NCBI GenBank assembly: GCA_007132975.1
Contig: SLNO01000047.1
Coordinates: 1 to 64,000, forward strand
Length of the DNA stretch: 64,000 nt
Origin: Balneolales bacterium
Lineage (GTDB): Bacteria > Bacteroidota > Rhodothermia > Balneolales > Natronogracilivirgulaceae
Direction: 5' to 3'
Numbering within the stretch: position 1 is the first letter of the stretch; the number at the start of each line of letters is the position of its first letter. The notes beneath the pieces are model-generated. The model was not told the DNA's origin. It ran no database searches and was given only the letters and a program-made list of their open reading frames with translations. A program made the translations under genes and the position numbers. Positions 1,748-60,432 of the stretch are shown here, piece after piece.

Positions 1748-3970
1748 ATGAAATACGTACTGATCTGCTTCTTTACCATTGCCTGCATCTTCACAACTGC
1801 GAACCTTAATGCCCAGACAACCATCTATCAAAATCCGGAAGCATCCATTGATGAGCGGGTTGAAGACCTTCTGAGACGGATGACCGTTTATGAGAAGATC
1901 GGGCAGATGACCCAGCTCAACATATCCATGATCAACACCACAGGCGCTGCAAGCGATGTGGTCCTGGATGAAGAAAAAGCACGGTATCTCATTCGCAACC
2001 ATCATATCGGGTCGTTTATCAACGGCGATGCCGTTCCACCCGAAACATGGTTCACATTTATATATGAACTCTCACGTGTAGGCCTGGAAGAAAGCAGGCT
2101 GGAGATCCCGGTCATCTATGGTATTGATCACATACACGGTGCCAGCTACCTTGCCGAATCCACCATTTTTCCACATAACATCAACCTTGGCGCCACATTC
2201 AACCCGATCCACGCCTATGCAACCGGGTGGGTAACCGCTTACGAATCAGTAGATATCGGGCATCGCTGGGGTTTTGCGCCCACGATTGACCTTGGCGTGA
2301 ATCCACTCTGGGCCCGTATCTGGGAAACCTATGGCGAGGACCCCCATCTTGCTTCCGAGATGGGTCGAAATTTCATTGAAGGATACCAGGGAAATGAAGA
2401 GATCGCGCCGTACCGGGTTGCGGCCACGGGCAAACATTTTGTTGCATATTCCGATCCAAGGACAGGCTGGGACCGCACACCCGTCCAACTTTCCATGCAG
2501 GCCATTCGTGAGTTCCACCTCCCCCCTTTCCAGGCAGCTGTGGATGCCGGCATCAAAACAATGATGCTGAACAGCGGTGAAGTGAACGGCATACCGGTGC
2601 ACGCATCATACGAGTTTGTCACAGAACTTCTCAGGGATGAAATGGGGTTTGATGGCGTTGTGCTTACCGACTGGGCTGATATTGAAAAGCTGGTCGATTT
2701 GCACAGAACTGCTGAAAACTACAAGGAGGCCGTTTATCAGTCGGTTACAGCCGGGATTGATGTCAGTATGACCCCGCTTGATCTCAATTTTAATACTGCG
2801 CTTAAGGAACTTGTGGATGAGGGACGCATCACGGAGGAGCGGCTTGATGAATCTGTGCGCCGGATACTCCGGCTTAAATTTGAACTTGGCCTTTTTGAGT
2901 ATCCCTTCCCTCGCAGCGACAGGCTTTACAGAATCGGAACGGAAGAGAACAGGCTCAAGGCCCTTGAGGCCGCGCGGGAGTCTATTGTGCTGTTGCGAAA
3001 TGAGAACGACGTTTTGCCGGCCAAAGAACCCAATTTGATCGTAGTTGCGGGGATGTCGGCCAACAGCAAGCGCAATCTGAACGGCGGCTGGACGCTTACC
3101 TGGGCCGGGGGAACTGAGGAGCAGTATCCGGAAGATATGCACACCATTTATACCGCTCTGCAGAAGGAATATCCGGCAGCTGAAATCCGGCTGATCGCAT
3201 CGGAGCTTAGGTCATCTGCAAACCGGGACCTGTTAGACAGCGCAGATTTGATCATCTATGCGGGGGGTGAGGAACCTTATGCGGAGTTCACCGGCAACGT
3301 CACCGATCTGACCTTGCCCAGCGACCAATTATCAGATGTTGCGTTTTTGTCAGAGTCCGAAACGCCGCTTGTGCTGGTCCTTGTGCTGGGAAGGCCGCGG
3401 ATCATCACACCAATAGTTGAGAAGACGGATGCCATCATTTTTACAGGACTGCCCGGATTCGAGGGCGGTGAAGCCATTGCAAATATCATCAGCGGACGTG
3501 TGAATCCAAGTGGAAGGCTGCCCATTTCATATCCCATGTACACGGGACACTTTTCGACCTACAATCACAAACCAAGCGCGATATCCTCATCCGCGCTCTA
3601 CCCTTTTGGTCACGGTCTGTCGTACACAGAGTTTGATTACAGCGATTTACAGCTGGGGAGCCATTCAGTGGGCATGAATGAGTCTTTGACTGCCTCTGTC
3701 ACGGTTACCAACAGCGGTGAAGTTACGGGGATGGAGAGCGTGCTCTGGTACATAACCAACCATGTAGGCAGAATTTCAAGGCCGGTTCTGGAGCTGAAGC
3801 ATTTTGAAAAAATCGAGCTGGAGCCGGGGGAGTCTACCAGGCTGGAGTTTGAATTGGTGCCGCAAAAACATATTTCATACCCGGACCGCTATGGAAACAG
3901 AATACTGGAACCCGGTCGGATTACCGTTAGAGTCGGGGATTTATCGAAAGAGTTCATGCTTGTTGAGTGA
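1748..3970 (+). CDS. bglX: Glycoside hydrolase family 3 beta-glucosidase (BglX-like), secreted
   Basis: 740 aa; signal peptide; 'RMTVYEKIGQMTQ', 'VVLTDWADIE', 'ARESIVLLRNEN', C-terminal fibronectin-III-like domain 'LYPFGHGLSYTEFDYS'. Confidence 0.92.
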   Translation: MKYVLICFFTIACIFTTANLNAQTTIYQNPEASIDERVEDLLRRMTVYEKIGQMTQLNISMINTTGAASDVVLDEEKARYLIRNHHIGSFINGDAVPPETWFTFIYELSRVGLEESRLEIPVIYGIDHIHGASYLAESTIFPHNINLGATFNPIHAYATGWVTAYESVDIGHRWGFAPTIDLGVNPLWARIWETYGEDPHLASEMGRNFIEGYQGNEEIAPYRVAATGKHFVAYSDPRTGWDRTPVQLSMQAIREFHLPPFQAAVDAGIKTMMLNSGEVNGIPVHASYEFVTELLRDEMGFDGVVLTDWADIEKLVDLHRTAENYKEAVYQSVTAGIDVSMTPLDLNFNTALKELVDEGRITEERLDESVRRILRLKFELGLFEYPFPRSDRLYRIGTEENRLKALEAARESIVLLRNENDVLPAKEPNLIVVAGMSANSKRNLNGGWTLTWAGGTEEQYPEDMHTIYTALQKEYPAAEIRLIASELRSSANRDLLDSADLIIYAGGEEPYAEFTGNVTDLTLPSDQLSDVAFLSESETPLVLVLVLGRPRIITPIVEKTDAIIFTGLPGFEGGEAIANIISGRVNPSGRLPISYPMYTGHFSTYNHKPSAISSSALYPFGHGLSYTEFDYSDLQLGSHSVGMNESLTASVTVTNSGEVTGMESVLWYITNHVGRISRPVLELKHFEKIELEPGESTRLEFELVPQKHISYPDRYGNRILEPGRITVRVGDLSKEFMLVE

Positions 3971-9035: not shown

Positions 9036-12000
9036 ATGGAATCCATCGATAATATCCTGAACCGGCGATTCAAGGCCCTGAAACCAGGGGACGTACGACT
9101 TGCAGACCTGGCTGCCGAGGCTGCAGAGGCCGGATTTAAGCCATTCGAGCTGAACGCAAAACTTTTCCCGATCTGTTCACCACAGGCTATTCAGGAGGCG
9201 TGGAGCGATTGGACGCACATTTCTGAGAGGGAGGAGATCCGGCTCAGGCTCATGGCCCTGAACACGTTTGAGAAGATCCATCCATCACTCATCCCCTTCC
9301 TCATTTTCTATTTTCGCTCTTCGGATTCGCTGCTGTATCAAACCGCGGGGCAAATCATCGGCAAAAATTTGCTGTTTCACAAGGGTTTGAGCCATTTTTT
9401 CCGGGAGTACCTGGCACAACGGAACGTGGATGCAAGCCAACCGGTAGATTTGAACGGCATCAGAAGCAAAAGGCGCATCCTTGTAGCCCTTGCTTCCTTG
9501 TATGCTGCGAAACATGCCGGAAAGCATATCGATACTGTGGGAGAAGTACCCGACGGCTTTTTTGCAGTTATGCCTCTTGACCTGGACAAGCTGGAGCTGC
9601 ATCCACCCGAAAACCATCTGGACCTGAGCGCCGTAATGCTGGCTTTGTCCATCCTCCTGAAACATGGACTGGCAGACGGCTGCTTGGACGCCGCTGAAAA
9701 ACTGTTGCAGCTGCCGGGCAGCCAGGATGTTGCCATCTGGGACAGAAATGTCATTCGGAACTGGGGGGTGCTGCTAAACGCAACCCCCCTGCATGATTCC
9801 CGGAAGTGCGATCTCTGCCGCAGTTTTCTGCAATCGGGGATCCATCACCTGAACCAATCGGCCCATTTCAAGGACAGGCTGCACATCCTGTATGAGCTGG
9901 ATGAAATCGTAAAATCGATGGTTCATATTCCAAAATCGGAAAAGGTCATCCGTGAGCTCGATGTGACAGACCCTGAAGATGCGCGCGCACTTGATTTTCT
10001 GAAGCTTCAGTTCCGTTACTGGCGGCTGCGAGAAACAAATAGCGATGCACCTTTTGATGATGTCCGGCAAACCGGATCGGAGGTTCTCGTTATTGTTGCT
10101 GAAACCGGCAGATTACGCAACGGAGACTCCAGACCGGATGCGATCTACAAGCTGTTCCAGCCACTTTACTCCGAACATGCGTGGAGATTGCAGCCTACCG
10201 AAGAGCGGGTCCTGCGCACTTTTTTCATACTCCACAACGCGTCACAGATGCATCTTTCCCGTAAAGATGAAATCAATCAAATGATTTCAGTAATCCGTCC
10301 TTCCCTATCAGAAGTGACTTATGCCCGCCGGACGAACGCGGATGCTGACCAACCGCTTCTGGACAATCTTCTTGTCAGGCTCACTGAGCTTGAACTCACG
10401 GCCAAAGGACAGATTCCGGATGGCCGGCTGATCCAGAAGATCACAGATGAGAACCTTTTGATAAGTTTGCTGCCAACTGAAACCGATTCCGAACTGCTGC
10501 CGGTACTGGCTGACGCATTCGAACACCGGCTCCGGCTTTTACTCGCTTTCGATCCGCAATTTGACGTGGACCATTATGTTTACAAAATAACTATTCGGGA
10601 GCCGAACCGTAACTTCTACCGTTACATGCGGGAAATCACGCACAAACGGCATTATGGCAGGGAAGGTGACCCAGCGGTTGATTTGTCCGCGCGATTCCAG
10701 CTGCTTTACCAGCAAGGAGCGGGCGGAAAAGCTGGCGGGGCATCGATATTGGCAAATGATCTGCCGTTTTGGGGCACATTGGATCAGATTCGCGCGCGGC
10801 TGACCAGCCTGTTGTCAAGCGAACGACTCTTTGACCTGCTTGAAGCATTCATCCACGAACTGGAAGGAACCGGCGCTGAGACGCTCAGCAGCACATCCAC
10901 CCTGCATGACCTGATCAATATTACCCAGCAGGACGGCGCCAGATGGATCCGCTCCGGGTTCCCATCCCTCTGGAACCAGTCGGCGCCGGTCATCAACCAA
11001 AGACTGGCACAGATCCATCAGCAACTGAGATCGGATCTTCCCAAATTGAAGCCCGATCAACTGAGTGGATACATGGATGCCGCCGAAGCATCGCATCGCA
11101 TCAAGGAATCCCTTGAAGAGGCGGCCTCTCTCCTTTCGCCTACGCTCGGCAAAAACGAGGCGGCCATTGTAAACCGGATCTCGTCTCATCTGAAGCAATT
11201 GACGGATCATTGGATATTCTCTTTGTCCGATATCGGCAAGCACTGGGATGATTTCAAGCAATCCGGCACTTCCATCCGTGACGAGCAGCGCAATGCCATA
11301 TTCCAGTCTATCGGCAAGGAAGCAAACAGCCACATGAAAAGCGCATTGCTTAATGTGTTTCTGGCAACCCTGCTCAAACCCGATGCAAACCGGAAACAGC
11401 TCACCTGGATCCATCAGTACCATATACTGTTGTGGGCGGCGCAGGCAATGACCTCTCCGGTACTCAATGACTCTGAGACGGCAGAATGGAAAAAAAGCCT
11501 GGTTGCACTGTGGAAGCAGATGCTGAACACTGCGATGGAGCAGAGTATGGAAGCCAGGGTGGTCCAATTGATCAAGGCCCGGCAGTTTTCGGAGCTGCGC
11601 AGAGAGGAGGAGATCCAGATGATGCTGCCTGCGGTAAAAACCTGGTGTTTTGACCGCTATGACATGAATCACGCCTACATCTGCAACCGTGAACTGGCGC
11701 CTGACAAGAATCTCGTCCAGAACAGATGGACCACCGCGCGGGAGTTTCTTGCCCATTTTTCCTACGTTTGGCTGGCCCTGGTCGTGGGTGTGATCCTGAT
11801 GTTCGATTTTGGGGATCCCTGGGCGGAACTGGCGGAAATCGGTGATGTGGGCGGCGTGCTGTTCGCCTTTGTACTTGGAGTAACCGGCGCCTACCTGTAT
11901 GTTTTTGCCGATCTGAACAAGAAGGCCAAACTGATCAAGGGGGATCCGTTTGAGTGGGCTTCGCGGTTTGTCCGGGTGGCTGTATTCATTTTGATCACTC

Positions 12001-12161
12001 TGTTTTTTACCGTCTTGATGGTGCTTCTGTTCTATTACATGTTTTCCAGCACGGACCAGGTCGTGACCGGTGCCAATGCCGTCTGGCATATCATGTCATG
12101 GACCGGTTTCGCCCTTTTCATAGGTGTTTTCTTCGGCCTGCTTGGTAAAAAGAGATTCTGA
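9036..12161 (+). CDS. Large hypothetical protein with C-terminal multi-helix membrane domain
   Basis: 1041-aa uninterrupted ORF with about 4 hydrophobic helices near the C terminus ('YVWLALVVGVILMF', 'GGVLFAFVLGVTGAYLYVFA', 'FVRVAVFILITLFFTVLMVLLFYYMF', 'SWTGFALFIGVFFGLLGKK'); no family recognised. Confidence 0.85.
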   Translation: MESIDNILNRRFKALKPGDVRLADLAAEAAEAGFKPFELNAKLFPICSPQAIQEAWSDWTHISEREEIRLRLMALNTFEKIHPSLIPFLIFYFRSSDSLLYQTAGQIIGKNLLFHKGLSHFFREYLAQRNVDASQPVDLNGIRSKRRILVALASLYAAKHAGKHIDTVGEVPDGFFAVMPLDLDKLELHPPENHLDLSAVMLALSILLKHGLADGCLDAAEKLLQLPGSQDVAIWDRNVIRNWGVLLNATPLHDSRKCDLCRSFLQSGIHHLNQSAHFKDRLHILYELDEIVKSMVHIPKSEKVIRELDVTDPEDARALDFLKLQFRYWRLRETNSDAPFDDVRQTGSEVLVIVAETGRLRNGDSRPDAIYKLFQPLYSEHAWRLQPTEERVLRTFFILHNASQMHLSRKDEINQMISVIRPSLSEVTYARRTNADADQPLLDNLLVRLTELELTAKGQIPDGRLIQKITDENLLISLLPTETDSELLPVLADAFEHRLRLLLAFDPQFDVDHYVYKITIREPNRNFYRYMREITHKRHYGREGDPAVDLSARFQLLYQQGAGGKAGGASILANDLPFWGTLDQIRARLTSLLSSERLFDLLEAFIHELEGTGAETLSSTSTLHDLINITQQDGARWIRSGFPSLWNQSAPVINQRLAQIHQQLRSDLPKLKPDQLSGYMDAAEASHRIKESLEEAASLLSPTLGKNEAAIVNRISSHLKQLTDHWIFSLSDIGKHWDDFKQSGTSIRDEQRNAIFQSIGKEANSHMKSALLNVFLATLLKPDANRKQLTWIHQYHILLWAAQAMTSPVLNDSETAEWKKSLVALWKQMLNTAMEQSMEARVVQLIKARQFSELRREEEIQMMLPAVKTWCFDRYDMNHAYICNRELAPDKNLVQNRWTTAREFLAHFSYVWLALVVGVILMFDFGDPWAELAEIGDVGGVLFAFVLGVTGAYLYVFADLNKKAKLIKGDPFEWASRFVRVAVFILITLFFTVLMVLLFYYMFSSTDQVVTGANAVWHIMSWTGFALFIGVFFGLLGKKRF

Positions 12162-22973: not shown

Positions 22974-23735
22974 TCAAATTTTCCTGATCAGGTGCAATCC
23001 GTCACGCACACTTAACATGACATTTTCCACATTGGGATCATCAGCTATAAGCCGGTTCAGCCGGTCTATGGCGGCTGCTTTTCTGTTGGATGGAGACCCC
23101 CCGGCAACGTTGCCTCTTTGGACCCGCTGCAGTTCCGGTCGCCACACCTCTCCATTCCAAAAAGCGTTGTCGACAACCATTATCGCCCCTGGAGCCAAAT
23201 GTGGTAAGATTTTTTCGTAATACTCCGGATAATTTTCCTTGTCGGCATCCAGAAACACAAAATCAATGACTTCCGGCAAGCCGGCTTGCAATGCCGGACC
23301 TAAAAGCAGCTGTATACCCGCAGGTGTGCCCGGCCTCTGGAAGGGCTCATTAAACTTATCTGCTTCCGCTACCTTCTCTAAAGCTCTCCGGCGGCCGTCC
23401 CCTGTCTCCGGCCACTCCAAACGGTATCGGTCAAAGAAACGCCTGGCTATGTGAGCGTATTTCTCATTGTTCTCACAGGTGATCACCTTTCCATCAGGTG
23501 GAAGCGCCATGGCCATCCACAAGGTTGCATAGCCGGTAAAGGTGCCGATCTCAAGTACCGTTTTTGCACCGCTCATTCGAACAAGCATATTCAGGAAAGC
23601 CCCAACGACCGGACCGCTCAGCATGTCGTCATGTCGCAGCTCCCGCGTTGTTGTCTCCCTCAGATCCTTGAGAAGCGCAGGTTCCTTGCGCATCATACAG
23701 TCTGCATACCGGTCTGATTCTTCCTTGAAACTCAT
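22974..23735 (-). CDS. O-methyltransferase (CCoAOMT-like)
   Basis: 'TVLEIGTFTGYATLWMAMALPPDGKVITCE', 'IDFVFLDADKENYPEYYEKILPHLAPGAIMVVDNAFWNG'. Confidence 0.9.
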   Translation of the reverse strand: MSFKEESDRYADCMMRKEPALLKDLRETTTRELRHDDMLSGPVVGAFLNMLVRMSGAKTVLEIGTFTGYATLWMAMALPPDGKVITCENNEKYAHIARRFFDRYRLEWPETGDGRRRALEKVAEADKFNEPFQRPGTPAGIQLLLGPALQAGLPEVIDFVFLDADKENYPEYYEKILPHLAPGAIMVVDNAFWNGEVWRPELQRVQRGNVAGGSPSNRKAAAIDRLNRLIADDPNVENVMLSVRDGLHLIRKI

Positions 23736-24268
23736 GGAACCACGATCTTTCTGATGATTTCGCTGACAGGAATTTCCAGGTCGGTTGCCCTTGCCGGAAC
23801 ACGCTGCGGAACTCGGATCGTCGGTGTTGAACTCTGTGCTTCCGGAACGACCGACATCACCGGGTTTATTTCGCGACGCAACGTGAGCCGAATCACAAAA
23901 ATACCCGTGCGTATGCGCCTTGCCTCAAGTCCGGCGGGCAGAAGTATCGCATCCAGGACGGCCCTGAGCTCTGAATCCCTGAATTCTCCCGAGGCGGTTT
24001 TGCCAGCCGTAAGCCTGGGTTCGTAGATAAATTCGGCACCGGTACGTTCGGATATCCGGAAAAGCGCCTGGTCCAAAGTCACATCCCTGAATTCGAAGTC
24101 CCACCTCTCAGTGCTTGTGCTGCCGGTTTTAGATGCATCCTGGCCTGGGTTCCGTTTATCAGCGGCCTGCGCGCCTGCTGCCGTCATATGCAGACACAGC
24201 CCTGTAAGACATAGCGCCGCAGCCAGGGATTTGAAAACGAGGTGATGGAGGATATTCGCACGCAACAT
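23732..24268 (-). CDS. Stand-alone STN (secretin/TonB short N-terminal) domain protein
   Basis: 'WDFEFRDVTLDQALFRISERTGAEFIYEPRLTAGKTASGEFRDSELRAVLDAILLPAGLEARRI' matches the STN pattern; no plug or barrel follows. Confidence 0.75.
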   Translation of the reverse strand: MLRANILHHLVFKSLAAALCLTGLCLHMTAAGAQAADKRNPGQDASKTGSTSTERWDFEFRDVTLDQALFRISERTGAEFIYEPRLTAGKTASGEFRDSELRAVLDAILLPAGLEARRIRTGIFVIRLTLRREINPVMSVVPEAQSSTPTIRVPQRVPARATDLEIPVSEIIRKIVVP

Positions 24269-24290
24269 ATCCGCAATTTAGGACAATTCC

Positions 24291-24392
24291 ATGAAATGAA
24301 CATGGCAGCCTCTGGCTGACTCAAATGAGCATGATCAAACCCTGCCATGTGAATTCATTCTGACCTTATAAATCCAAATTTGATTTGAACAG
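24291..24392 (+). repeat. Dispersed ~100-bp structured intergenic repeat, copy 3 (divergent, stems conserved by compensatory changes)
   Basis: ATGAAATGAACATGGCAGCCTCTGGCTGACTCAAATGAGCATGATCAAACCCTGCCATGTGAATTCATTCTGACCTTATAAATCCAAATTTGATTTGAACAG then ATGAAATG; perfect ACATGGCAG/CTGCCATGT and CAGCC/GGCTG. Confidence 0.85.
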
Positions 24393-24501
24393 ATGAAATG
24401 AGCATGAAAGCATTGATAGGGGAATCGGGGAAACCACCGGATATGCCTGGCTCGCGCAGATCTACGTGGTACGACATTCCCGATTGGAACACTGGATTTA
24501 C

Positions 24502-24626
24502 ACTCTGCGCCGGATGTACCTGATGCGCCAAACTTGACTGATGCGCGGGATATACCTGATGCTGCATGCTTGACTGATGCGGCGGATCCACCTTTTGCGA
24601 CGCGCTACCTCGTGCGGCGGATCCAC
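24502..24626 (+). repeat. Degenerate tandem repeat, ~18-bp period (about 7 units; 36-bp higher-order pattern)
   Basis: Units ctgatgcgccaaacttga / ctgatgcgcgggatatac / ctgatgctgcatgcttga / ctgatgcggcggatccac / cttttgcgacgcgctac / ctcgtgcggcggatccac. Confidence 0.75.
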
Positions 24627-24652
24627 TTCCTGCAAACAGATCTGATGGAAGG

Positions 24653-25606
24653 CTAGAACAGGTGTAATTGGCCGTTCTGCTCCTCATACCGGCAGTCGGT
24701 CACAAAACAGATGGTCTCTATGATGGTCTCGAGGTCGCCCGGACGAGGCAAATAAATAGTAAGCTCCCGGGCGCCAAGCTGTTCATTACCGATGATGATC
24801 TCGGAATCATAGCGCCTTTCCAGTTCCGCAGCTACTTCACTCATAGGTATAGCAGAGAAATAGAAGCCGTGGTTCCGCCAAGCCAGGGCTTGATTGGTAT
24901 CTATGGGTCGGGGGTCATGCGGCACGGAATTGAGATAGTCGATTTCGCTGATATGTCCAGGGGGTATCAGGACAGATGCCTCCGGCTCAAGCAGGGATGC
25001 CAGCCGTACTTGTCCCTCAACCAGTGTAAGCGTGGTGCGTCCCGTCGGGTCATCTGCCCATGAACGGACGTTGAAACGGGTGCCCAGAACTTCCACCATG
25101 GCCGTTTGCGTTTCTACGATAAATGGCTTCTCACTGGTGGGTACATCAAAATAGGCCTCGCCATGCAGACGAATGTTACGGTGGCCATTTGTAAAACTCC
25201 GGTTCCAGGAAATGGTGGATCCGCTGTTGAGTTCCACCCGGACCCCATCGTTCCATTGGAACGTGGTGTATGAACCTCTGGGAGCTTCAATACTGACCGG
25301 GATAAACAGGTACCACAGGAGGAAGCCACCCAGAAACAGGGCCGCCAGAGCCGAGATGAAGGCATACGTCCTGGCCGATGAACTGCGTCGCCGGGCAGGG
25401 TGTATATGCAAAGTAGGCCTGGTTGGACCGATCCTCTTCTGCAGCTTTTCCCATGCAGCTTGCATCTCTTTCGCGGACAGATTACCGGGTTCCGGTTTCC
25501 TGCGACGGGCCTTATCCCAGATCAGGTGCAGATCTTCCTGCTGTTCGCCCGGAAATTGATTCAGGATTTGTTTATCTGGTTTCTTCTTGTCCATGCTATC
25601 TCTCAC
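24653..25606 (-). CDS. FecR family anti-sigma factor
   Basis: 'GVRVELNSGSTISWNRSFTNGHRNIRLHGEAYFDVPTSEKPFIVETQTAMVEVLGTRFNVRSW', 'TLVEGQVRL', DUF4974-like C terminus. Confidence 0.93.
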   Translation of the reverse strand: MRDSMDKKKPDKQILNQFPGEQQEDLHLIWDKARRRKPEPGNLSAKEMQAAWEKLQKRIGPTRPTLHIHPARRRSSSARTYAFISALAALFLGGFLLWYLFIPVSIEAPRGSYTTFQWNDGVRVELNSGSTISWNRSFTNGHRNIRLHGEAYFDVPTSEKPFIVETQTAMVEVLGTRFNVRSWADDPTGRTTLTLVEGQVRLASLLEPEASVLIPPGHISEIDYLNSVPHDPRPIDTNQALAWRNHGFYFSAIPMSEVAAELERRYDSEIIIGNEQLGARELTIYLPRPGDLETIIETICFVTDCRYEEQNGQLHLF

Positions 25607-26162
25607 GATCTGACTTCCACTTATTGAGCTTCTCTCTCAGGTTGTTCAGAGCCCCTACGATGTGGTTGTTCACCGTTCGGGGCGCGCATTCCATAACATC
25701 CGCTATTTCATGATGGTCAAGCCCTTCGAACCTGCTGAGTTCAAATGCTTCGCGTTGTCTTGGCGGCAGTGCTTCAATCCATTCTGTGAGCTGCCGTTCG
25801 AGTGCATCACCGCTATCATTCTGGAGGAATTCAGCCGCCATTTCCTCACTTGGTTGTTCTGAGGGAGCAACATCGTCCAGCCTTACGGGTCTCTTCGACC
25901 TGATCACGTTGATACTGCGGTTTTTTACCATGCGGTACAGCAACGCCTTGAGGGATTTGTTCTCATCCAACCGATCACGGATTTCCCACAAATGGGCATA
26001 CACCTCCTGCAGGATGTCACTGGCGACATCGGCGTCTTTCACAAAATTCAGTGCATATCGCATAAGTGGTTGGTATGAATCCATGAACAGGTCATGGAAT
26101 GCTTTGTTATCTGACCTGCGGATCCTGCGTGCCCACTTCCGATATTCTGTTGCGTTTGTCAT
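25596..26162 (-). CDS. RNA polymerase ECF sigma-70 factor
   Basis: 188 aa; region 2 'VASDILQEVYAHLWEIRDRL', region 4 'LPPRQREAFELSRFEGLDHHEIADVMECAPRTVNNHI'; overlaps FecR start. Confidence 0.93.
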   Translation of the reverse strand: MTNATEYRKWARRIRRSDNKAFHDLFMDSYQPLMRYALNFVKDADVASDILQEVYAHLWEIRDRLDENKSLKALLYRMVKNRSINVIRSKRPVRLDDVAPSEQPSEEMAAEFLQNDSGDALERQLTEWIEALPPRQREAFELSRFEGLDHHEIADVMECAPRTVNNHIVGALNNLREKLNKWKSDRER

Positions 26163-56332: not shown

Positions 56333-56432
56333 ATGAAATGTCCATGACCGGGCATCTTCCGGTCACACAAGAGCATGATTAAAAACGTCATGGATATTCA
56401 TTCTGACCTTATAAATCCAACATTTTCGACAG
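56333..56432 (+). repeat. Dispersed ~100-bp structured intergenic repeat, copy 4, abutting the S9 peptidase start codon
   Basis: ATGAAATGTCCATGACCGGGCATCTTCCGGTCACACAAGAGCATGATTAAAAACGTCATGGATATTCATTCTGACCTTATAAATCCAACATTTTCGACAG then ATGAAAA. Confidence 0.9.
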
Positions 56433-59411
56433 ATGAAAACAACCCAGAATTGCTTCCAGGCACGCACATGGTGCCTGATGCCGCCGGCGAAAACCGCGAT
56501 GCGCAACGTCTTTTTTGTTGCACTACTGATGTGGATTCCAATCGTGCCAGGTGCGGGCGATGTGTTTTCACAACCGGCCAGCCGGTCGAGCGCTCAGGAA
56601 ACAAACGGCAATTACTGGTCGCCAGCCGATATCGTCCGGCAGGAGTCGGCCAGCCAGTTCACTTTTTCGCCGGACGGCACCATGGTTGCCTGGGTCAAAT
56701 CCCGCAACTCCTCGGAAAACGACCGCAACGTGACCGATCTTTACCTCACAAGGCTCGATCGCAAAGCCGGGGATTCCGGGGTGGATGGAGACCGCTCCCC
56801 GTACCTTAGCGTGCGATTGACCCGGACGGAAGATTCTGACCGCAACCCGTTTTTCTCGCGCGATGGCGCCCTGCTCTATTTCCTGTCGTCCCGTGACGGC
56901 GGCAAGAAGCTGTGGGCCATGAACCTGCATGGGGGTGAACCCTATGAGGTGCATGAATTCGACGAGGGGATTGGCAATGCCCGTATCCTGGACGATGGTA
57001 CCATCCTGTTTGTTTCACAAGAGGGTGACCTGCTCATCGAGGCGCAGCGCAAAGAGCGCAAGGACAATACCTTGGTGATCGAAGACACGCTCACCTTCAA
57101 ACCTTCGCGGCTTTTTTCCTTTGATCCGGATTCCAAAGAGATCCGCCGGCTCACCGACAACCGGTATCCGGTCAGCACGTATGCCGCATCGGATGACGGA
57201 CGCTGGGCTGTTACCGTCCACACCCGCAGCCCGCACTACGGCGCCGATGCTCAGCCGCCTCCATCCTACTATTTCCGGGATTTGAAGTCGGGCAAAAGCC
57301 TGCGCATCCTGCAGGGAATGCAAACTCCCGGCAGCTTCGCCTTCACCAAGGACGGCAATGGGCTCTATTTCACCGCCGTCACCTCCTCGGATCCGCATTG
57401 GAGCGGGGCTGGCATCTCGAAGCTTTACTACATCGAGATTCCCGCGGACCTCGACCTGGAAGCCTATGCCGTCAAGGATCCCGATAACATCAATCAAGCC
57501 AGTGGTTCCGAAGAACCGACAGATCATCCTCTGCAACCTGTTGAAGTTCCGCTGGACTGGGACTGGGCGCTCTCATCAGGATTCCAAGTACTCGGCAACG
57601 ACGTGCTGGCCTCGCTGGCCAATGGCCCCACGCGCATCCTGGCGCACTACGAGCGTCGCGGCAATGGTGAATGGCGCAAACGCATCGTCGAAACCGGCCG
57701 GTTCGATGAGCGGGTTGCCATTGGCTCCATTTCCGAAGATCACAAAAAGGTGGTTTTCGTACACGCCACCGCATCCACCATACCGCAATATCGCATCGGC
57801 GAACTGGATGTGCGCCGACGCAGTGCCCGGCTTTCCGAAAGCGAACACCTGGTCCGGCTCAACACCGGCCTGGCGGACAAGTACGTGGCCAGATCCGAGA
57901 TCTTCCGCTGGACCGGCGCCGAAGACAACGAAGTCAACGGCATCCTCTACTATCCCGAGGATTACGAGCCCGGCAGGGCCTACCCTCTGGTCGTGGCCAT
58001 CCGCGGCGGACCTGCCGCCGTCACCCTCGACTGGTGGAACATGAGCTGGGCCTATTTCCCGCACATTCTGTCACAAAAGGGCTCATTCGTCCTGATGCCG
58101 AACTACCACGGCTCATCCAACCACGGACTTGAATTCGTCGAGTCCATCAAGGGCCGCTATTATGAGCTGGAGCTTGTTGATATCGTAAATGGCATTGAAA
58201 CCCTGCACGAAGCGGGCAAGGTAGACAAGGACTCGCTCGGGGTGATGGGCTGGTCCAACGGATCCATACTGGGAATAGCCCTGTCCGTTGAGTATCCTGA
58301 CATGTTCCGCGTGCTGGGTGCTGGTGCAGGGACCGTGAACTGGGCATCCGATTATGGAACGTGCGAGTTCGGCGTGAGGTTCAACCAGAGCTACATCGGC
58401 GGCGCCCCTTGGGACAGCACCGACGGCACCTTCTACAACCGCGCCTACATCGAAAAATCACCGCTGTTCCGCATGGAGCGCGTCAAGACGCCAACCATCA
58501 TCTTCTTCGGCAGCGAAGACCGGGCGGTGCCGCGTGACCAGGGCTGGGAGCATTACCGCGCCCTGCAGCAGATCGGCAAAGCCCCCGTCCGCTTCCTCTG
58601 GTTCCCCGACCAGCCCCACAGCCTTCTGAAACTTACCCACCAGCGCCGCAAGCTGGAAGAGGAGATCGCCTGGTTCGACCGCTGGCTGTTCGGTACCTTC
58701 GATGAGCCCAACCGCGCCTTCAAGGATGACAGCCCGCTGGCCGCGCTGCTCAAACGCGACAGCCTGGCCATCTACAACGGCTATTTTGGGCTGCGCAACA
58801 GCGACCGGCTGATCCCCGAGACGGTTCCCGTCGACAGGGACACCATCGCCATCGGCCGGTTCCCCGTGACAAACATCCAATACCACGCGTTCGACTCCAC
58901 CCACACCTTCCACCCGTTGCAGGCCAACCATCCGGTCCGCGGTATCGGGGTGGATGCGGCCCGCGCCTACACCCGCTGGCTCAGCGAGCACACCGGCCGC
59001 ACCTACCGCCTGCCCAATACCGAAGAGACCCGCGCCCTGCACCGCATCGCCCATCGCGCCGGAGCCCGGCAGAACACACTCAACCACCTTGCCGGTTTCG
59101 GGATCACGGTGGATGAAGTCGGCATCCTGCGGCAGAAAATGGACCTGCTATCAGCAGAACAGCTGGTGCGCGAGGTAGGATCGTTCCCGCCGGTCAAGGT
59201 CGGCGATGCCGAAATCTACGACCTGGGCGGCAATGTGGCAGAATGGTCCGATGGCGGCTCGAACGACGGCGGCTCGAACAATAGCGGCTCAAACAATGGC
59301 AGTTCCGTTTACGGGTACAGCGTACATGATTTTGTGGATGCGGCCGATCCGGGAAGCCGCGAGCTGGATCCGGAATTCACCGGGTTTCGCGTCATCCGGG
59401 AGGCTGACTGA
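56433..59411 (+). CDS. S9 family (prolyl oligopeptidase) peptidase fused to a C-terminal FGE/SUMF1-like domain
   Basis: Beta-propeller N-terminal region; catalytic region 'LGVMGWSNGSILGIALS', 'FFGSEDRAVPRDQGWEHYRALQQIGK', 'DQPHSLLK'; C-terminal 'AIGRFPVTNIQYHAF...RAYTRWLSEHTGRTYRLPNTEETRAL...DLGGNVAEW...EFTGFRVIRE'. Confidence 0.88.
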   Translation: MKTTQNCFQARTWCLMPPAKTAMRNVFFVALLMWIPIVPGAGDVFSQPASRSSAQETNGNYWSPADIVRQESASQFTFSPDGTMVAWVKSRNSSENDRNVTDLYLTRLDRKAGDSGVDGDRSPYLSVRLTRTEDSDRNPFFSRDGALLYFLSSRDGGKKLWAMNLHGGEPYEVHEFDEGIGNARILDDGTILFVSQEGDLLIEAQRKERKDNTLVIEDTLTFKPSRLFSFDPDSKEIRRLTDNRYPVSTYAASDDGRWAVTVHTRSPHYGADAQPPPSYYFRDLKSGKSLRILQGMQTPGSFAFTKDGNGLYFTAVTSSDPHWSGAGISKLYYIEIPADLDLEAYAVKDPDNINQASGSEEPTDHPLQPVEVPLDWDWALSSGFQVLGNDVLASLANGPTRILAHYERRGNGEWRKRIVETGRFDERVAIGSISEDHKKVVFVHATASTIPQYRIGELDVRRRSARLSESEHLVRLNTGLADKYVARSEIFRWTGAEDNEVNGILYYPEDYEPGRAYPLVVAIRGGPAAVTLDWWNMSWAYFPHILSQKGSFVLMPNYHGSSNHGLEFVESIKGRYYELELVDIVNGIETLHEAGKVDKDSLGVMGWSNGSILGIALSVEYPDMFRVLGAGAGTVNWASDYGTCEFGVRFNQSYIGGAPWDSTDGTFYNRAYIEKSPLFRMERVKTPTIIFFGSEDRAVPRDQGWEHYRALQQIGKAPVRFLWFPDQPHSLLKLTHQRRKLEEEIAWFDRWLFGTFDEPNRAFKDDSPLAALLKRDSLAIYNGYFGLRNSDRLIPETVPVDRDTIAIGRFPVTNIQYHAFDSTHTFHPLQANHPVRGIGVDAARAYTRWLSEHTGRTYRLPNTEETRALHRIAHRAGARQNTLNHLAGFGITVDEVGILRQKMDLLSAEQLVREVGSFPPVKVGDAEIYDLGGNVAEWSDGGSNDGGSNNSGSNNGSSVYGYSVHDFVDAADPGSRELDPEFTGFRVIREAD
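59250..59306 (+). repeat. In-frame 15-bp tandem repeat (about 4 units) coding for a Gly/Ser/Asn-rich segment
   Basis: gatggcggctcgaac gacggcggctcgaac aatagcggctcaaac aatggcagttcc. Confidence 0.85.
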
Positions 59412-59417
59412 CAGGCA

Positions 59418-60275
59418 TCACTCAACCAGGGAACGCAGCCATGCGATCTCATCCGCCCATATTTCCGGCCGGGTCGTCTCCAGGATCATCGGGAGGCGAT
59501 CAAGCCGGTCGTCGTTCATAATGAGCCGGAACGGCTCCTGGCCCATGGTGCCGGTACCCAGCGGCGCGTGGCGGTCCACCCGGCTGCCAAGTTCCGATTT
59601 GGCGTCATTCAGATGCAGGCCGCGCAGCATGGATAGCCCCACAATCCGGTCGGCCTCCTCCATGGTCTGTCGGTACCCTTCCGGCGTGGTCAGGTCGTAG
59701 CCCGCGGCATGCGCATGGCAGGTGTCGATACAGAACCCGACCCGGCTCTGGTCCTCCACCTGCCCGATGATCTCGGCCAGATGCTCGAACCGGTAGCCCA
59801 GGTTGCTGCCCTGTCCGGCCGTATTCTCCAGCACCACCGTCACCCCGCGGGTCTTGTCCAGCACAATGTTCACCGTCTCGGCGATGCGCGACAGGCACTC
59901 CGTTTCGCTGATTTGGCGCAGGTGGCTGCCCGGATGGATGTTGAGCTGTGGAATTCCCAGCTGCTCGCACCGCTGCATCTCATCAAGCAGGGCCTCGCGC
60001 GATTTCTCGATACCCGCTTTTTCGGGATGCCCGGGGTTGATGAGGTAACTGTTGTGCGGGAGGATGCGGTCTGCGGTGAAACCAAGCTCCCCGCACTTCT
60101 CCCTGAACGCTTCTATATCAGCTTCCAGCAGCGGTTTAGCCTTCCACTGGCGTTGGTTTTTTGTAAAGAGAGCGAAGGCATTGGCTCCGATGGCCTGTGC
60201 ATTGACAGGCGCATTCTGCACTCCGCCGGCAGCGCTCACGTGCGCTCCGATCCATTTGTCAGATAAAATGAGCAT
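59418..60275 (-). CDS. nfo: Deoxyribonuclease IV / endonuclease IV
   Basis: '[38 protein letters not shown]', '[25 protein letters not shown]', '[17 protein letters not shown]', '[23 protein letters not shown]'; true start may be internal. Confidence 0.96.
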
Positions 60276-60363
60276 GACCGGGCACCTCCCTTACACACAT
60301 AAGCATGATCATAATCATCATGAACATTCTATGCGACCTTATGAATTCAACGTTCATATACAC
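60263..60363 (+). repeat. Dispersed ~100-bp structured intergenic repeat, copy 5 (decayed)
   Basis: ATAAAATGAGCATGACCGGGCACCTCCCTTACACACATAAGCATGATCATAATCATCATGAACATTCTATGCGACCTTATGAATTCAACGTTCATATACAC then GTGAATT; conserved core but weakened stems. Confidence 0.75.
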
Positions 60364-60432
60364 GTGAATTGATTATTTTTTTTTGCGTTCTTATTTGCCC
60401 TTTGAAGCGCATTCAACCTCATCAGGAAACGT

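Follow-up and report, generated by a model that had tools for sequence, protein, structure and literature searches.

What keeps the stems of a short repeated sequence paired while its letters change? The question arises near position 24,300 of a 64-kb window of Balneolales DNA (the window being the whole 64,000-nucleotide stretch that was analyzed), where an earlier note, made from the sequence alone, described a divergent repeat copy whose outer and inner stems had been preserved by compensatory change. The strings that it quoted do occur in the sequence, no more than a base or two from where it placed them, and its central proposal that the stems are kept on a folded single strand is borne out by pairing far above shuffled and slid controls. 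What the note missed is that the copies are mobile-element insertions at ATGAA start sites and not ordinary leaders.

The element is noncoding and approximately 100 nt long, has ATGAA at both ends, and occurs singly or in head-to-tail arrays (one to four units, with a period of approximately 100 nt) in which adjacent units have one ATGAA in common. Within the window, repeat analysis identified five plus-strand copies. The tail motif occurs five times and the core motif three times, versus 0.25 and 0.04 occurrences expected from shuffling. Copy 1 (positions 1551 to 1651; left ATGAA at 1551 to 1555 and right ATGAA at 1647 to 1651) is the first of a tandem pair. Copy 2 (1647 to 1752) begins with the right ATGAA of copy 1 and ends with an ATGAA (1748 to 1752) that is the start codon of a glycoside hydrolase family 3 (GH3) gene (1748 to 3970, plus strand, profile-checked). 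The 56-kb copy (56333 to 56437) likewise ends in a start codon (56433 to 56437), that of a profile-checked plus-strand gene with peptidase S9 and FGE-sulfatase domains (56433 to 59411). A decayed fifth copy (60263 to 60368) has ATAAA on the left, GTGAA on the right, and no open reading frame (ORF) downstream. The called start of an opposite-strand TIM-barrel gene (59418 to 60275) lies inside this decayed copy, at 60263 to 60275, and may be misplaced or may come from the copy itself.

The 24-kb copy (24291 to 24397, plus strand; left ATGAA at 24291 to 24295 and right ATGAA at 24393 to 24397) is intergenic and antisense to an STN gene, and no ORF follows its right end. Judged by eye, ATGAAATGAGCATGAAAG at 24393 to 24410 looks like the left end of another tandem copy that has decayed. 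The intergenic region of the 24-kb copy also holds head-to-tail 18-nt units (36-nt matches at steps of 18) at positions 24506 to 24577, between this copy and the end of a FecR gene. On the minus strand from 23732 to 26162, genes for an ECF sigma factor and FecR precede one for a 178-amino-acid protein with only a weak STN domain, which is followed by an O-methyltransferase gene; the sigma factor and FecR genes have no full TonB receptor gene directly after them. Elsewhere in the window, open frames at 159 to 1379 (406 amino acids) and 9036 to 12161 (1,041 amino acids) have no Pfam match.

A pseudoknotted single-strand fold

The stems belong to a pseudoknotted single-strand fold with four helices, P1 to P4. 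In the 24-kb copy, the outer stem P1 (24300 to 24350) pairs ACATGGCAG at 24300 to 24308 with CTGCCATGT at 24342 to 24350, and the inner hairpin P2 (24306 to 24318) pairs CAGCC at 24306 to 24310 with GGCTG at 24314 to 24318. Both pairings are thus present as described previously, but the two stems have bases in common (the three bases CAG at 24 kb and TGAC at 1.6 kb). As a consequence, P1 and P2 are never both complete at once, and the inner helix compatible with a full P1 is approximately 3 bp. The 24-kb sequence is also no lone divergent copy, as had been supposed; it belongs to the GAACATGGCAG subfamily, which has many members in several species. Its compensations are therefore largely one shared set, and independent evidence has to come from other copies.

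Such evidence is provided by the aligned copies. P1 and P2 are paired in 86.6% of alignment cells, compared with 27 to 39% in slid controls, and they contain 70 double changes, whereas 22.8 were expected. The earlier note had held that variation without compensation would mark the pairing as chance. Stem positions do change in this way in approximately 13% of cells, but pairing remains far above that of the controls. To control for relatedness, contrasts were made between disjoint pairs of close copies, and stem pairs ranked 2nd, 3rd, 5th, and 6th of 879 column pairs. The fourth-ranked pair lay outside the proposed model and revealed P3, a pseudoknot in which the core TTAAAA pairs with the tail TTTTAA, or TTATAA with TTATAA in other copies. 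In the 24-kb copy, P3 (24335 to 24388) shows a C-G compensation, with TCAAA at 24335 to 24339 opposite TTTGA at 24384 to 24388. P3 was discovered in these same data, which makes the support for it partly post hoc.

The first-ranked pair, with 41 compensatory switches in 64 contrasts, joins an internal guide to the right end of the element. In this helix, P4, the guide TTCTAT[C/G]TG (or TTCATTCTG) pairs with the right end CA[G/C]ATGAA, i.e., with the start codon. P4 of the 24-kb copy (24354 to 24397) pairs TTCATTCTG at 24354 to 24362 with CAGATGAA at 24390 to 24397, leaving one bulged T. Across copies, 91.9% of P4 cells are paired, and a single C/G position accounts for 26 double changes, compared with 13.3 expected. 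Moreover, the C or G of the guide matches the G or C of its own right end in 109 of 128 deduplicated copies (Fisher P = 1.4e-16). Within tandem arrays, the guide matches the end of the left neighbor in only 9 of 53 cases, and neighbors tend to alternate in type, a pattern that would follow if copies matched on both sides are lost. The same guide also pairs, imperfectly, with the left ATGAA, and the pairing of guide and ATGAA includes a conserved A·C mismatch, which is odd for simple base pairing.

Taken together, the 27 pairs of the full structure are formed in 89.4% of cells, compared with 26 to 44% when slid, and include 118 double-change cells, compared with 41.7 ± 4.9 after shuffling. Two tree-based covariation tests gave a best E value of 0.38 and P values of about 0.01 to 0.06; the lack of strong significance probably reflects the poor tree obtainable from 100 recombining bases. 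RNAalifold predicted no consensus structure. The core and tail had previously been read as single stranded, but the core is paired with the tail in P3, and the guide is paired with the right end and the start codon in P4.

Pairs such as those of P3 and P4, which are pseudoknotted, nonpalindromic, and covarying, would be meaningless in duplex DNA. For this reason, we consider it highly improbable that the element is a double-stranded palindrome or protein-binding repeat whose stems serve as a binding site or a cruciform, even though high copy number, a mostly extragenic location, and palindromic stems are what such a repeat would show. The argument made earlier against a cruciform, that a G-U wobble at 56 kb favors RNA, is not supported. 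Over all stems, with two atypical positions left out, single-side mismatches are G·T in 34 cases and A·C in 28. G·T pairs form in single-stranded DNA too, and with A·C nearly as frequent, the wobble is not diagnostic of RNA. The covarying strand may act as RNA, as single-stranded DNA, or as both.

In some copies, ATGAA is followed directly by an additional 19 bases, C[CT]GAA[AG]GTC[AG]CG[AT]AG[CT]G... This left-end variant forms a mini-hairpin with a GAA loop, CAC-GAA-GTG or CGC-GAA-GCG, in which the change is paired. It was seen at loci L033, L057, L086, L125, L138, and others, sometimes doubled, and similar hairpins lie inside the tail at locus L078.

Insertion at ATGAA and start codons

Orthologous sites with and without the element define its boundaries. 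The metK site is filled in the host genome (...atattaca-ATGAA-ATGTCC...TTTTAAACAC-ATGAA-ATATCTC) and empty in other members of the genus (...ctaattgca-ATGAA-ATACCTC). Similarly, pheT is filled in five genomes (G000, which is the host, G002, G006, G007, and G009) and empty in three (G001, G004, and G008), and the 5' flanks of filled G002 and G007 are nearly identical to those of empty G008 and G004 (...cactccg-ATGAA). At both genes, the comparison puts the element precisely on the ATGAA of the start codon, with the pentanucleotide present on either side. Insertion thus occurs 3' of a fixed short oligonucleotide that the left flank retains. In one trpA copy, both ends read TTGAA. The ends, ATGTCC.. 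on the left and ..AAACA[CG] on the right, are not inverted repeats. For the GH3 copy of the window itself, no orthologue close enough to supply an empty site was found, the best matches being approximately 60% identical. Just before the pheT start codon, the element-free relatives G003 and G012 (loci L176 and L181) have ATAAACAG or TTAAACAG, which are possibly remnants of an element right end.

Start codons are two- to threefold enriched over other nongenic ATGAA sites, an excess that targeting or selection alike could yield. The terminal ATG opens an ORF of 100 codons or more in 65 of 101 last-in-array copies, or, counted by array, is the start of a long ORF in 63 of 97; by comparison, 20 to 34% of nongenic ATGAA sites are possible starts (41 to 84 of 201 to 244). 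Although genes contain the majority of ATGAA sites, no more than 3 of 97 arrays could be interrupting an open frame, and so insertions into genes are either absent or removed by selection. The same count bears on the idea of an intron- or bypass-like element that the ribosome skips or that is removed from the mRNA. With ATGAA directly repeated at the two ends of such an element, the native ATGAA start and reading would be restored exactly, but a removable element should be tolerated within genes, and we regard this idea as barely credible.

A more serious alternative is that the copies are cis-regulatory RNAs, similar to riboswitches or thermosensors, in which P3 and P4 hide the start codon and open on a signal; the fold would be kept for its function, and mobility would account only for its spread. 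The conserved structure of P3 and P4 does cover the initiation region, exactly at TTTTAAACACATGAA, most copies lie at gene starts, and the same genes (pheT and a nucleotidyltransferase) have copies in several species. Set against these points, the genes downstream are unrelated (metK, pheT, thrA, ispF, purQ, GH3, and others, as named from their N termini, with profile checks for those in the window) and form no coherent regulated set with a common pathway. No long ORF follows approximately one-third of arrays, the metK and pheT sites of close relatives are without the element, and, by eye, different subfamilies occupy the same gene in different species. We therefore judge regulation as the primary function to be unlikely, while a regulatory effect is plausible on the modeled fold, because P3 and P4 would cover the start codon in mRNA.

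The account that we favor, and hold to be fairly probable, is that of a nonautonomous, high-copy Balneolales mobile element of approximately 100 nt that has a base-paired fold and depends on an enzyme acting in trans. Such an element would insert directly 3' of ATGAA, most often that of a gene start codon, with ATGAA then on both sides and the tail of the element as new sequence upstream of the start codon. By analogy with the IS200/IS605 family, the guide may bring two ATGAA sites together for excision and insertion as a single strand, steps that the enzyme in trans would carry out. The same fold, if formed in mRNA, would cover the start codon through P3 and P4.

Spread, host range, and search for an enzyme

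The 3.24-Mb host assembly contains at least 62 copies, a lower bound since 40 of 102 candidates were scored. Several copies lie within approximately 700 bases of contig ends in this assembly (contigs C20, C91, C107, C110, C112, and C113), as expected if the repeat breaks assembly, and so the true number is probably higher. Of 93 copies, 71 have their nearest neighbor within their own genome, compared with 37 expected from shuffling, and some copies are 100% identical to their nearest relative, a pattern that recent spread would give.

Among 41 relatives, 18 carry the element, and across the class it occurs in 23 of 245 genomes, most of them from one Balneolales family (17 of its 20 genomes). 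When 85,462 species genomes were scanned with an exact pattern, matches came almost only from metagenome-assembled genomes of Balneolales/Balneolaceae, many of them from soda-lake sediment according to our interpretation of sample names. The exact tail is also found in records labeled Nealsonbacteria and Cloacimonadota (loci L093 and L136); L093 has both the copy and the downstream gene start in common with Balneolales loci, making binning contamination likely. The element was not found in IMG/VR by exact pattern or in plasmids or phages. Rfam 15 had no match in the window, the element itself reaching only a chance-level hit to sau-19 (E = 0.33; 20 bits versus a cutoff of 80). Keyword searches returned no published description, which is weak evidence of novelty since they covered open-access literature and most subscription journals lay outside. 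Apparently, this high-copy mobile element of approximately 100 bases from soda-lake Balneolales has not been described previously.

Which enzyme moves it? The Y1 transposase (PF01797) is missing from 9 of 10 genomes of the genus, the host (88% complete) among them, and from G017, which is 98% complete and has at least 22 copies. No element copy was detected adjoining the Y1 gene of the sole genus genome that has one. A reverse transcriptase (PF00078) was found in 1 of 10 genus genomes, and the IS110 DEDD transposase (PF01548) is absent from all 10 and from G017. Presence of Y1, reverse transcriptase, or IS110 is not correlated with presence of the element. The profile search for the IS91 Y2 enzyme was silent, as were its controls. 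Searches via half-copies and via the region between two copies revealed no autonomous copy, only ordinary genes such as the amidohydrolase between two copies on contig C112, and no recurrent neighbor gene emerged as a candidate transposase.

These results weigh on the proposal that the element is a true IS200/IS605-derived miniature (PATE or REP-like) whose Y1 HUH transposase is missing from assemblies or too diverged for the profile. Insertion 3' of an oligonucleotide kept on the left flank, hairpins, putative pairing of a guide with the ends, and the lack of terminal inverted repeats all fit that family (PMC5934647). However, beyond the scarcity of Y1 in the genus and its absence from a nearly complete carrier, the transposase is commoner in relatives without the element, and the position of the guide and the single-guide design differ; we consider this origin quite improbable. 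More speculatively, the element could represent a new kind, in which a self-guiding pseudoknotted strand reads ATGAA by base pairing, colonizes start codons without breaking genes, and hides or exposes the start codon in mRNA, with an enzyme outside the Y1, Y2, IS110, and reverse transcriptase families. We advance this larger picture tentatively, as a possibility that may well prove wrong.

By landing precisely on start codons, a mobile element can rewire how dozens of genes are translated while leaving the genes intact, and in these genomes leaders may be mobile DNA instead of classical regulatory RNA. The natural copies already supply compensatory variants for testing. Also, the element would exemplify, in minimal form, insertion directed by base pairing in a group without a candidate enzyme, and so the discovery of that enzyme would be informative in itself.

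Comparison with known systems

The closest parallels are IS200/IS605 elements, among them IS608 and ISDra2, and their miniature PATE derivatives. These insert 3' of a short site of 4 to 5 nt that stays on the left flank, lack inverted-repeat ends, have hairpins, and recognize their ends through base pairing with an internal guide (PMC5934647). By contrast, nearly all hosts of the element described here lack a Y1 transposase, and its fold is pseudoknotted. It has one guide, 3' of the stem, for the right end and partly for the left, whereas IS608 has two guides, each 5' of a hairpin; its right end is the same ATGAA as the target, whereas the ends of IS608 differ (TTAC and TCAA). Measured by the guide pairing of PATEs, guide/right-end covariation is strong, left pairing is imperfect, and the guide position is different, such that recognition by this route is putative.

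REP/BIME sequences with TnpA-REP are also short, high copy, mostly extragenic, arranged in tandem arrays, and built of stem-loops (PMC8266576). The present element differs in being approximately 100 nt long and located at start codons, with no GTAG-palindrome organization seen and no TnpA-REP/Y1 found.

The IS605-specific stem-loops of Borrelia adjoin lipoprotein genes and keep their structure by compensating and wobble changes (PMC2775950). As here, transposon-derived stem-loops lie next to genes and vary in a compensated manner (PMC2775950), but those of Borrelia flank the 3' ends of certain families of lipoprotein genes and are tied to known IS605, whereas the Balneolales element lies at the start codons of unrelated genes and has no parent insertion sequence. 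Finally, the BrickBuilt MITE of Porphyromonas gingivalis, from the same broad bacterial group, is also a small noncoding mobile element with tandem repeats (PMC4596501). BrickBuilt has inverted-repeat ends and lies 49 to 591 nt from genes, while the element of the Balneolales has no inverted repeats and abuts the start codon.
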